The notes under the pieces are model-generated. The model worked only from the letters and a program-made list of their open reading frames with translations. It did not search any database and was not told where the DNA came from. Both the position numbers and the translations under genes were made by a program. A stretch of 64,000 bases of DNA, from contig JAPLNI010000042.1 of NCBI GenBank assembly GCA_026692865.1, positions 69,382 through 133,381 on the forward strand, in the 5' to 3' direction. Origin of the DNA: Planctomycetota bacterium. GTDB taxonomy: Bacteria > Planctomycetota > Planctomycetia > Pirellulales > Pirellulaceae. Positions within the stretch are counted from its first letter, which is position 1, and each line of letters begins with the position of its first letter. This document shows positions 10,451 to 64,000 of the stretch, piece after piece.

Positions 10451-10477
10451 CCCCGGATGGCTCACGCCAAGCCTTAA
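10451..10477. repeat. Divergent copy of the GC-rich dispersed repeat
   Basis: CCCCGGATGGCTCACGCCAA aligns with ACCCGTGGCTGACGCCATCGG of the intergenic copy at 33436. TGGCTxACGCCA matches at 11 of 12 positions and keeps the small TGGC/GCCA stem. The rest is diverged, so this copy is less certain than the other three. Confidence 0.4.
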
Positions 10478-22829: not shown

Positions 22830-23861
22830 ATGTTCGATATCCTGAAGATCAACCTGTGTTCTCCATTAACCCTGGCATTTGCTCTTGGGGTCTTTGCGAG
22901 AATAGTCAAGAGCGAACTAGCTTTACCGCGTGACCTTTATACCTCTCTCTCGATCTATCTGTTGTTCGCTCTAGGGTTGAAGGGCGGCGTCGAGCTTTCA
23001 CACAGTTCATTCTCAGAGATCTCAGGACCGGCGTTTGTCACAATATTGCTGGGGATTATTACCCCAGTTACGTCCTACCTTGTGCTCCGGAAACTAGGTC
23101 GATTCAGTATTGCCGATGCGGCTGGTATTGCCGCTCACTATGGCTCGGTTTCGGCTGTCACGTTCATTGCAGCACAGCAGTTTGTTACGTCGGCAGGTTC
23201 TCCTGCGGAGGGATTCATGCCTACACTGCTTACCCTCCTGGAGATACCAGGAATTCAGATAGCCTTGGCCATTGGTGCCTTTCAAATGGCGAGGAGCAAA
23301 GCCAATTCTCAAGCCGTGAGTAAGGCTGATGGCAGCGTGGAACCCGTGGCTAGCGTTATCGGCTCAGGAAGAAAAACTAGCGAGTTGATGCATGAGCTAC
23401 TAACCTCACGATCGATGATCCTCCTTGTAGGCGGACTAGTGATTGGCGCTTCGGTAGGCGACTCGGGCTGGGCGATGGTTCAGCCAGTTTTCGAGGGACT
23501 TTTTAAGGGACTCCTGACGATCTTTTTGCTGGAAATGGGACTGGCTGCGGGATCGCGTTTAGGAGACTTGCGTCATGCGGGCCTATTCCTACTTGGCTTC
23601 GGAATCATCATGCCAATATTTCACGGTACACTTGGAGCTTACTTAGGATCACTCGCCGGTCTCTCCGTTGGTGGCTGCACTGTGTTGGGAACGATGGCTG
23701 CAAGTGCATCCTACATCGCGGCACCACCTGCAGTCCGAATGACATTGCCGGAAGCCAATCCAACATTTTACCTTACAGCCGCCTTGGCGATTACATTTCC
23801 GTTCAATCTAGTATTTGGCATACCAATTTACTTCGCTATTTCCAAAGCCCTTTGCTCCTAA
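22830..23861 (+). CDS. sbtA: Sodium-dependent bicarbonate transporter SbtA
   Basis: 343 aa, about ten hydrophobic helices, normal length for SbtA. Family hallmarks: FALGVFARIVKSELALP, LFALGLKGGVELS, DAAGIAAHYGSVSAVTFIAA, LLEIPGIQIALAIG, and the second half FLLEMGLAAGSRLGDLR with MAASASYIAAPPAVRMTLPEANP. SbtA imports HCO3- with Na+. The cytoplasmic linker between the two halves (residues ~157-185) contains VEPVASVIGSG, which is encoded by a copy of the dispersed GC-rich repeat (23337-23368). It is followed 33 bp later by the PII-like sbtB, as in cyanobacteria. Planctomycetes are mostly heterotrophs, so the carbon likely supports carboxylation reactions or pH balance. Confidence 0.92.
   Translation: MFDILKINLCSPLTLAFALGVFARIVKSELALPRDLYTSLSIYLLFALGLKGGVELSHSSFSEISGPAFVTILLGIITPVTSYLVLRKLGRFSIADAAGIAAHYGSVSAVTFIAAQQFVTSAGSPAEGFMPTLLTLLEIPGIQIALAIGAFQMARSKANSQAVSKADGSVEPVASVIGSGRKTSELMHELLTSRSMILLVGGLVIGASVGDSGWAMVQPVFEGLFKGLLTIFLLEMGLAAGSRLGDLRHAGLFLLGFGIIMPIFHGTLGAYLGSLAGLSVGGCTVLGTMAASASYIAAPPAVRMTLPEANPTFYLTAALAITFPFNLVFGIPIYFAISKALCS
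23337..23368. repeat. Dispersed GC-rich repeat copy inside sbtA
   Basis: GTGGAACCCGTGGCTAGCGTTATCGGCTCAGG matches the intergenic copy at 33436-33467 over its whole core, with few substitutions. Here it is read in frame as the peptide VEPVASVIGSG in the cytoplasmic linker of SbtA. Confidence 0.75.
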
Positions 23862-33349: not shown

Positions 33350-33382
33350 AGTGTAGACCTGGGGGTTGAAAAGGGCATTTTT

Positions 33383-33418
33383 CCTGGGCCGTAGGCGATA
33401 GCCTCGGGTGCCACCTGG
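33383..33418. repeat. GC-rich repeat module B upstream of the ICMT-like gene
   Basis: CCTGGGCCGTAGGCGATAGC followed by CTCGGGTGCCACCTGG; it is bounded by CCTGG at both ends and contains GGC-GATA-GCC. It lies directly next to the dispersed-repeat copy at 33436. Open on the minus strand, it creates a false N-terminal extension of the ICMT-like gene. Confidence 0.5.
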
Positions 33419-33435
33419 CAAATTGTGGCAAAGTT

Positions 33436-33474
33436 GAAACCCGTGGCTGACGCCATCGGCTCAGGTTTCATAAG
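33436..33474. repeat. Dispersed GC-rich repeat, intergenic copy
   Basis: Core GAAACCCGTGGCTGACGCCA continuing TCGGCTCAGGTTTCATAAG. The same core occurs at 63679-63720 and 23337-23368, and in diverged form at 10451-10477. TGGC-TGAC-GCCA can form a short stem. Here it is in non-coding DNA. Confidence 0.8.
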
Positions 33475-33681
33475 CCCTGTGCGGGCCTGGCGCGAAGCCA
33501 TAGAAAGGAGAATGATTTGCGAGACACCGATTAACCGGGACGAAGACGAGAAATCGCCTCCCTGAAGATTACCTCCCAAGCAAGCGTCTGCGCGAAAATT
33601 CCTTATCGCCCTTCCTCAACTATGCTCTCGTTCGTCCTTGTTCTTCAGTACCAACGTTTCAATCAGATTAATCGCTACCAC

Positions 33682-63157: not shown

Positions 63158-64000
63158 TCAAACTGATTTTTGACTAGCCGATCTCCGTAACGTCCACTCT
63201 TCCGTTCGGAATTTCTCATCGCAAATCGATCTGGCAAGTTGATTTACCGATTCGGTTTGCTCTTCGAACATCCAGTCGCAGTCCCAAATTTCATCCACAC
63301 TATCCTGTAAAACGCGACAAAAATCGATAGCCCAGCTCCATTTTTTTGCGTTAATCTTCGATAAATTTTTCGCGTCGCAACAGGTGGATTCCGTCGATCC
63401 AAGAACATCTAAACCAGACAGATGCGGCGCCGCAACAGATGGGCTAAGGAGTAGGCTTCCGTGCTGAAGCAAAGCACCGCTTGTACGCCGTTGAGCACTT
63501 CCTAGCACCTTTTGATTTTGGTTATCACTTCCCACAATAATGTCGACACTTGAACGACGGTCAAAACACAAAAACGACGTTGGATTCATGCTGGAACCTT
63601 TTGCTGCTTGCTGCAACCCTGTTTCGAAGCCTTCGAAATGACGGTTATTATCGATAGTTGGTATTATTGGGGCAGCGATGGCACCCGTGGCTAGCGCCCT
63701 CGGTTCAGGGTTTATCAAGCTCGAAAACGTTTTTGCGTCGAAGCCTAATCCTGTGAGCCAGTGAACCGTCTTGTCGTGAACCGCATTATAAAGCGTTTCC
63801 GAATGCCCCAATCTGGATTTCTTAACATTGTTCAGCGAAGAGTACGTGTGATCGGCTTCTTTACGAAGCTTCAACTGCATCGAACTTTCAAATAGCCTCG
63901 GAACAGCCACCGAGTAAGTTATCTCATGATCATGAACGATCGCCCCACCACCGGTTTCCCGACGTACGCAATCAATTTCTTCAAGCCCCGGAATTGTTAG
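63158..64000 (-). CDS. Lipoate-protein ligase-like (BPL/LPL family), 5' end outside window
   Basis: The frame is open to the right edge, so the start lies beyond position 64000; the part seen is ~280 codons. At the edge the lipoate ligase motif RRETGGGAIVHDHEITYSVAVP is present, followed by LYNAVHDKTVHWL, FLCFDRRSSVDIIVG and KVLGSAQRRTSGALLQHGSLLL, with the catalytic Lys in KVLGSAQRR. It would activate lipoate or octanoate and attach it to 2-oxoacid dehydrogenases or GcvH. Between the helix (VHWLTGLGFDAK) and FLCFDRR there is an extra segment of ~40 residues, part of which is encoded by the dispersed GC-rich repeat (63679-63720). C-terminal ~100 residues are less typical. Confidence 0.85.
   Translation of the reverse strand, partial: LTIPGLEEIDCVRRETGGGAIVHDHEITYSVAVPRLFESSMQLKLRKEADHTYSSLNNVKKSRLGHSETLYNAVHDKTVHWLTGLGFDAKTFSSLINPEPRALATGAIAAPIIPTIDNNRHFEGFETGLQQAAKGSSMNPTSFLCFDRRSSVDIIVGSDNQNQKVLGSAQRRTSGALLQHGSLLLSPSVAAPHLSGLDVLGSTESTCCDAKNLSKINAKKWSWAIDFCRVLQDSVDEIWDCDWMFEEQTESVNQLARSICDEKFRTEEWTLRRSASQKSV
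63679..63720. repeat. Dispersed GC-rich repeat copy inside the lipoate ligase gene
   Basis: ATGGCACCCGTGGCTAGCGC followed by CCTCGGTTCAGGGTTTATCAAG on the plus strand matches the copies at 33436 and 23337. The gene is on the minus strand, so it is read as NPEPRALATGAIA, in a different frame and strand from the sbtA copy. The reading frame is not broken. Confidence 0.78.

Follow-up and report, generated by a model that had tools for sequence, protein, structure and literature searches.

Related repeat families

Several described kinds of short palindromic repeat invite comparison with the one reported here. In Planctomycetes, GTAG and CGTC REPs are already known, both near convergent genes and inside genes, including those for replication and repair; section 15 of the same account lists RPE-4 and RPE-6 of Rickettsia as CGTC repeats (PMC3733652, in its accessible sections). 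The class 3 TnpA_Y1 HuH proteins have planctomycete hosts and carry the motifs NHVH and Y-x4-Q (stricter table consensus: YV[VI][AENY]EQ), and their flanking structures, with a 5' CnGA foot, reach up to hundreds of copies (PMC6006769, 2018, in the parts available). The enterobacterial RU-1, RU-2, and RU-3 repeats are 103-168 bp long and MITE-like, and have open frames inside genes (Delihas 2007, PMC2759123, in summary).

The repeat described below shares traits with each of these. Like the class 3 systems, it has a planctomycete host, a short Y1 protein with NHVH and Y-x4-Q, a high copy number (297), and in its own REPs, though not in those of all relatives, a foot of the CnGA type (CTGA); unlike class 3 in the description available, its protein reads YVIDCQ, and the repeats form inverted pairs of fixed spacing, with a 9-bp target duplication and copies in genes (PMC6006769). 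It shares with the REPIN/RAYT system inverted REP doublets, a preferred spacing, and a transposase gene beside its own REPs; it departs from the accessible account of that system in its foot, which is neither GTAG nor CGTC, in the outer ends and 9-bp duplication of its commonest unit (type A), and in the roughly one-fifth of sampled REPs that lie in genes (Bertels and Rainey 2011, PMC3116915). The tag CTGA likewise separates it from the GTAG and CGTC REPs as described in the sections cited (PMC3733652). The RU repeats are also MITE-like, open in frame, and found inside genes, but as summarised they differ from the present repeat, which has a REP hairpin pair and a class-3-like transposase (PMC2759123). 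Rickettsia palindromic elements, as excerpted, are alike in behaviour (palindromic repeats in frame in unrelated genes, with a recurrent peptide), and they differ in phylum and in that the present unit plus its duplication is a multiple of three in length (PMC10969869). A first-pass annotation of this DNA had drawn the Rickettsia parallel. It holds for in-frame palindromic inserts, but the known kind to which the repeat belongs is the REP/REPIN, which takes in some Rickettsia elements (PMC3733652, section cited).

REPs and in-frame palindromic inserts are known. The literature searched (planctomycete REPs, MITEs, and palindromes, and in-frame MITEs, for example PMC12306157; mostly papers outside subscription) yielded no published description of this repeat, and held neither the link to class 3, nor the frame-neutral length of 120 plus 9, nor a hybrid that bears target duplications.

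The repeat and its hairpin

The core, CCCGTGGCTNNCGNNNTCGGYTCAGG, occurs without mismatch at 23343-23368, 33440-33465, and 63684-63709, all on the plus strand of the window (the whole 64-kb stretch of DNA analysed) and each inside a stretch given in the first-pass annotation; 100 dinucleotide shuffles of the window gave no match. A fourth copy proposed at 10451-10477 did not survive: its best ungapped alignment to the core still has 10 mismatches, no better than chance. A 3-mismatch match to a looser pattern at 1045 was also taken as chance, since 20 Markov shuffles gave none (18 times) or one (twice). Across the genome (5,551,608 bases in 72 contigs) there are 297 copies with up to three mismatches, 142 on the plus strand and 155 on the minus, and a reversed-pattern control gave none. 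An Rfam scan of the window at the gathering score gave no match.

One window copy is intergenic and the other two lie within unrelated genes with the frame kept, as had been noticed. The first of these genes, at 22830-23861 on the plus strand, encodes an SbtA-like sodium-dependent bicarbonate transporter (PF05982, E 3.3e-110); its REP (23343-23368, plus strand) is read EPVASVIGSG and is interpreted as belonging to an old insert, by now partly decayed, within a mid-protein loop. The second is a lipoate/biotin ligase-like (lplA-like) ORF on the minus strand at 63158-63910 (PF03099, E 6.3e-5, 23.3 bits, cut-off 21), whose frame stays open upstream to the end of the window, so that the ORF runs off it. 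Its REP (63684-63709, plus strand) has the antisense reading NPEPRALATG and lies in a net insert of 66 bp relative to a congener, roughly at 63641-63712.

The intergenic copy proved to be half of a larger structure. A whole type A unit spans 33360-33478 (119 bp, consensus 120) and comprises an outer inverted end, a REP, a spacer, a second REP, and a second outer inverted end. The right REP, CCCGTGGCTGACGCCATCGGCTCAGG, is the exact core at 33440-33465 on the plus strand; the left, CCCGAGGCTATCGCCTACGGCCCAGG, lies inverted at 33383-33408 on the minus strand with three mismatches, and is absent from the first-pass annotation. The mini-element suggested there is too small: the mobile unit is an inverted pair of 120-126 bp, of which the core of about 30 bp is only a part. 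The unit is flanked by GTGTAGACC (33351-33359) and GTGCGGGCC (33479-33487), possible left and right copies of a 9-bp target duplication; they match at 6 of 9 positions, which is weak since about 8% of mismatched left-right pairs do as well (up to three mismatches, within one base of the offset).

Further description comes from a sample of 2,018,900 bases, or 36% of the genome: contigs C26, C25, C58, C50, C27 (minus its last 794 bases), and C29, the first 60 kb of C42, and the window. This sample is not random, since long contigs were chosen after the copy positions had been seen. REPs with up to two mismatches were counted (n = 154; another 32 with three mismatches were left out), and the reversed control of the looser REP pattern gave one match at this threshold in the first 1.25 Mb.

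The 24-base heart of the repeat can fold into a seven-pair stem that has a single bulged base, most often with the loop TAGC. Covariation bears out the TGGC-N4-GCCA stem proposed earlier. Among 122 distinct REPs of this genome (up to three mismatches), the outer pair 5-16 is T-A in 46, A-T in 23, C-G in 9, and G-C in 8 (C-A also occurs, in 15). The two positions pair in 75% of this set, compared with 40% (maximum 52%) for 500 shuffles, and in 96% of 24 distinct REPs taken from other genera, compared with 43% (maximum 67%). Pair 6-15 also exceeds its shuffles in the first set (82% against 74%, maximum 79%); no other stem pair does in either set. The consensus foot is CTGA, with no GTAG or CGTC tag, and for this reason the repeat is not filed under those REP super-families.

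Inverted pairs account for 101 of the 154 sampled REPs. A spacing of 55 is commonest (25 of 52 paired plus-strand REPs in the 2.0-Mb sample), followed by 61 and 74/75; units with these spacings are termed type A (55), type C (61), and type B (74/75). The doublets thus have a preferred spacing, as REPINs do, and with 297 copies, and 124 of 154 sampled REPs intergenic, the repeat is a high-copy short palindrome that is mainly extragenic, as REPs are. Its hairpin is of the REP type and shows compensatory changes in the stem; most copies are arranged in REPIN-like inverted pairs.

The type A unit and its target duplication

Type A, the commonest unit, is a 120-bp element that extends outward from the REPs to degenerate inverted ends of about TGGGCTGATGAAA. 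The REPs are better conserved than these ends, whose outermost 13 columns mostly agree in only 11-20 of 26 sequences. Inverted pairs of outer ends 60-4000 bp apart cluster at 119-121 bp in the sample, and no element of 1-3 kb with a convincing duplication was found between such ends there. Terminal inverted repeats of the kind that mark MITEs are present in type A and in one unit with a type B-like interior (C24:33861-33997, locus L248), and the latter implies that the outer ends are not bound to a single interior.

Of 28 elements (spacing 55, 56, or 58), 6 are flanked by identical 9-mers that lie no more than one base from the expected offset. A tandem cluster of three elements (C26:202880-203140) accounts for two of the six and was left out of the count because its direct repeats arise by tandem copying. 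Among the remaining 25 independent type A-like elements, four have an exact 9-bp target duplication: C26:35525, C25:70340, C58:199359, and C50:102735. Mismatched left-right pairs, with the tandem cluster included, gave identical 9-mers in 0.5%. At the strict offset, 3 of 26 spacing-55 elements are identical, and mismatched pairs never had fewer than two mismatches. The duplication has mostly faded (15 of 28 elements have at least four mismatches), and at the type A offset none of the 21 units of types C (7) and B (14) has two mismatches or fewer. A target duplication of constant length, 9 bp, is thus a property of type A-like units. The tandem cluster itself consists of three type A units with a period of about 130 bp, directly upstream of polA (C26:202880-203222).

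These duplications weigh on one account of the repeat, in which a class-3-like HuH transposase is the sole mover of REPINs, and repair or tandem slippage yields the outer ends and the 9-bp duplications as by-products. REPIN-like doublets, a transposase linked to REPs (below), and the better conservation of the REPs relative to the outer ends all agree with it. Four independent exact duplications within one base of a single offset, one of them at a site whose orthologue is empty with a net difference of 129 bp, are hard to reconcile with such by-products, and we regard this account as improbable.

Copies inside genes

Genes in the sample were called by an unvalidated codon-usage script (79% coding). 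By these calls, 124 REPs are intergenic and 30 lie in genes, a per-base density about 15-fold lower in genes. All 30 in-gene REPs are in one reading phase: 16 are read in sense, as P-x-A-S-A-x-G-S-G and variants, and 14 in antisense, as PEPMALATG and variants. The REP consensus has a second sense frame without stops (PWLAPSAQ), which is absent among the 30. The strands and frames counted in this 36% of the genome agree with the earlier idea that the repeats are tolerated as peptide inserts.

The 30 REPs are spread over 19 genes, and every blastp match between the encoded proteins (E up to 1e-5) takes in the insert. Insertion in frame into unrelated genes, familiar from the Rickettsia palindromic elements, is seen here as well. 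The genes include those for PolA, Mfd, a UvrD-type helicase with a PD-(D/E)XK domain, PurL, AcrB and its HlyD neighbour, a SpoU methylase, an M24 peptidase, a carboxyltransferase subunit, a protein kinase, a PSCyt/PSD1 protein, and SbtA. A Pfam scan covered 17 of the 19 proteins (the two left out, C25:117191 and C42:39890, cross loci); one has no family at all, and one has only a match below the cut-off. The lplA-like copy in the window is a twentieth gene, missed by the gene-calling script.

The uniform phase might be read as a sign of selection for the peptide, but this reading was dropped. Of the six frames of the type A consensus, only one is free of stops (simple shuffles of the consensus have at least one open frame in 75%). 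Since an insert has to keep the reading frame open, this phase is the only one available, and it is no evidence for a function of the peptide.

Intergenic REPs favour gaps between convergent genes (34 of 119 in the sample, against 18.7 expected by gap length), and the consensus unit folds strongly as RNA, at -68 kcal/mol (an absolute value, without a shuffled baseline). Both would suit hairpins that are selected as terminators or mRNA stabilisers and are not mobile elements at all. Given the copies in genes, the target duplications, and the presence or absence of inserts in orthologues, that account is very improbable, although a secondary regulatory role may exist at some sites.

Filled and empty sites in a congener

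A congener, G001, provided DNA matches for 19 of the 20 insert genes (orthology by best match). The insert site is empty in six, filled or bearing a remnant in 12, and unresolved in one. The empty sites are in the genes for the carboxyltransferase, PurL, the UvrD-type helicase, the M24 peptidase, the PSCyt/PSD1 protein, and the lplA-like protein; net insert lengths at the six are 129, 90, 90, 81, 135, and 66, all multiples of three. The value of 129 equals a 120-bp unit plus 9, and the empty site holds a single copy of the duplicated 9-mer. A 126-bp type C unit with 9 bp added would account for 135, although no duplication can be recognised there; from the shorter lengths we infer later in-frame deletions. 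The helicase gene of G001 retains a REP-like CCCTGAGCCGATTG, so its site may be a deletion rather than one never filled. Private insertions occur on both sides: G001 has insertions missing from the present sample at loci L266 (net 72) and L268 (net 152-153). In polA (C26:203289-206339, locus L084; L219 in G001) both congeners carry a REPIN at one shared site, with differing spacers, a pattern that would suit either a swap of interiors among copies or two separate insertions into that site.

At sbtA the site is filled in both congeners and decayed in G001. A search of 60 genomes for sbtA orthologues gave an SbtA match in 10, of which G103 and G033 aligned usably; the others aligned poorly and were left out. 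In the SbtA of G103 the loop lacks the motif yet is almost equally long, and for that reason sbtA alone is no proof of insertion. The motif itself was found only in the present genome and, decayed, in G001, which has 146 copies of the repeat, rather than kept in orthologues of species that lack intergenic copies.

Might the resemblance in the two window genes be accidental, with ordinary conserved protein motifs mistaken for the repeat? The variable sbtA loop, and its near-equal length in G103 without the motif, leave room for this. Against it stand the nucleotide identity to a 297-copy repeat, the empty lplA-like site in the congener, and the same type of peptide in 18 further sampled genes, and together these make coincidence hardly credible. 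The proposal that the repeat is mobile or spreading is supported by its 297 copies, the exact 9-bp duplications in 4 of 25 type A-like elements, and the six orthologous genes that are free of the insert in the congener.

The linked transposase

The genome has five PF01797 matches. One, P0001 (C24:48051-48536; 162 aa; PF01797, E 2.2e-6; below the cut-off of the NCBIfam IS200 model), has REPs on either side, the nearest 12 bp upstream and immediately downstream, with two on one side and three on the other (loci L033/L044), as expected of a transposase linked to its REPINs. It carries NHVH and Y-x4-Q, the latter as YVIDCQ, which falls outside the stricter class 3 consensus YV[VI][AENY]EQ.

P0001 has matches in 58 of 147 genomes, its own included, and 32 transposase loci were examined for flanking REPs (a second G056 match, at 56%, and matches without a locus were left out). 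With a loosened core (C.CG..GCT.GCGC...CGGCT.A) and no mismatches, five of the 32 have REPs on both sides: P0001 and loci in G082, G020, G144, and G056, whose transposases are 56-61% identical to P0001. These span two families and five genera, its own included, and all five transposases group together in a FastTree tree (midpoint-rooted, without support values). Among the other 27 loci, that of G102 has 3-mismatch matches on both sides, that of G028 has one such match, and 25 have none.

The four REP-flanked relatives read YVVEAQ, YVVEAQ, YVLEGQ, and YVTEAQ, and the feet of their repeats vary: against CTGA here, REPs of G144 have TTGAGCC, and those of G056 have GTTAGCC or CATCAGCC. Because YVIDCQ departs from the stricter consensus, and the feet in G056 and G144 are not CnGA, P0001 is termed class-3-like, and our confidence in the explanation preferred below was lowered slightly. 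Two further class-3-like loci were seen in G144. L151 (contig C7) has a variant hairpin, CCGAGGGCTCGCGCCC, on both sides, which suggests that REP and transposase diverge together; L153 has none. Both congeners also encode a second class-3-like protein (L032, C19:32306-32737; L144 in G001) without flanking REPs and without Y-x4-Q, possibly domesticated or dead.

Spread among relatives

Some core match with up to three mismatches occurs in 80 of the 147 genomes, most at control level. Besides the genome studied, clear excess is found in G066 (419 copies), G001 (146), G027 (81), G056 (60), G144 (57), and G038 (15). The repeat is thus abundant here but is not an element of this genome only, as had been supposed: six of 146 relatives have it in clear excess, and one of them, G144, belongs to another family of the same order. 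Exact consensus cores also occur in 16 stretches of the MAG H1_MAG_00040, several of which agree with G001 in contig number and position, and in one stretch of Rhodopirellula sp. Ww632.

Distribution of repeat and transposase do not coincide throughout. At E 1e-3, P0001 has no match in the REP-rich G066 and G027, and only a 39% match in G001 (draft genomes 95%, 92%, and 87% complete, respectively). This argues against strict dependence, or reflects loss or draft gaps. Other PF01797 proteins are present in G066 (three) and G027 (one), with no core at the loci examined. Sampling 396,200 bases of G066 gave 62 REPs, of which 5 lie in genes (two genes), so the in-gene share of the present genome is not general. 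Some G066 units have outer inverted ends of a different sequence, as judged by eye, and no clear target duplication was found among units of that genome.

Such observations suit a second alternative, that the units are purely DDE MITEs: remnants, shortened by deletion, of a cut-and-paste transposon that duplicates 9 bp of target. The hairpins would then be its subterminal repeats, and some copies would have landed beside a class-3-like gene. REP-rich genomes without a class-3 match, the differing outer ends in G066, the clustering of units at 120 bp with outer inverted ends and 9-bp duplications, and the type B-like interior between outer ends at C24:33861-33997 all speak for it. The core on both sides of five related transposases, in five genera and two families, is unlikely to result from chance landing, and the type B units at the REP-flanked transposase locus lack outer ends. 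Nor was a parent transposon with type A outer ends found in the two genomes searched: outer ends did not occur as an inverted pair at any of eight PF01609 loci (only as isolated 2-mismatch matches), and PF00872 had no match. A purely DDE origin is therefore unlikely, though less so than REPINs moved by a HuH enzyme alone.

A model for repeat mobility

The reading we consider probable combines the two systems: the repeats are REP hairpins of a class-3-like TnpA_Y1 (HuH) system, mostly in the form of REPINs, and the commonest unit of this genus, type A, has either developed into a 120-bp miniature element that duplicates 9 bp or been taken up by one. That these are mobile elements is supported by the data above. 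Y1 (HuH) transposases, such as those of IS200/IS605, would not be expected to leave a 9-bp target duplication, and for this reason two enzymes may be involved; most likely, the HuH-system hairpins lie inside a miniature element that is moved by another, candidate transposase.

Under this hybrid model, the class-3-like transposase would have made, or would still make, REPs and REPINs by single-strand chemistry. Some transposase would then cut at the outer ends with a 9-bp stagger and insert the unit fairly indiscriminately. Most insertions into genes would be lost. An insert in the right orientation and phase would add about 43-45 residues (PEPMALATG-spacer-PEASAYGSG) and could survive where the protein tolerates them, because 120 (or 126) plus 9 is a multiple of three and one frame of six is free of stops; later in-frame deletions would presumably shorten it. 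A stronger form of the model, which we hold tentatively as possible rather than probable, is that this selfish hybrid of HuH REP hairpins and a 9-bp-duplicating miniature element, frame-neutral and with one stop-free frame, acts as a mobile protein-insertion cassette, writing a peptide of 43-45 residues into tolerant sites of core proteins.

For the poorly studied class 3 TnpA_Y1 proteins, the repeat offers a concrete REP partner that tracks one related group of transposases across five genera. It also adds a planctomycete case to the bacterial repeats that write peptides into proteins, including the core proteins PolA, Mfd, PurL, and AcrB. Moreover, the filled and empty sites of two congeners can be used to study dating, tolerance, and selection on the frame-neutral length of a mobile element.

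Single REPs can also occur in direct tandem. In Rhodopirellula sp. Ww632, four exact 26-bp cores follow one another (L265, 7333-7436), and in G066 four REP-like units in direct tandem lie inside a gene (C8:37482-37577), where they encode PGASAHGS repeats.
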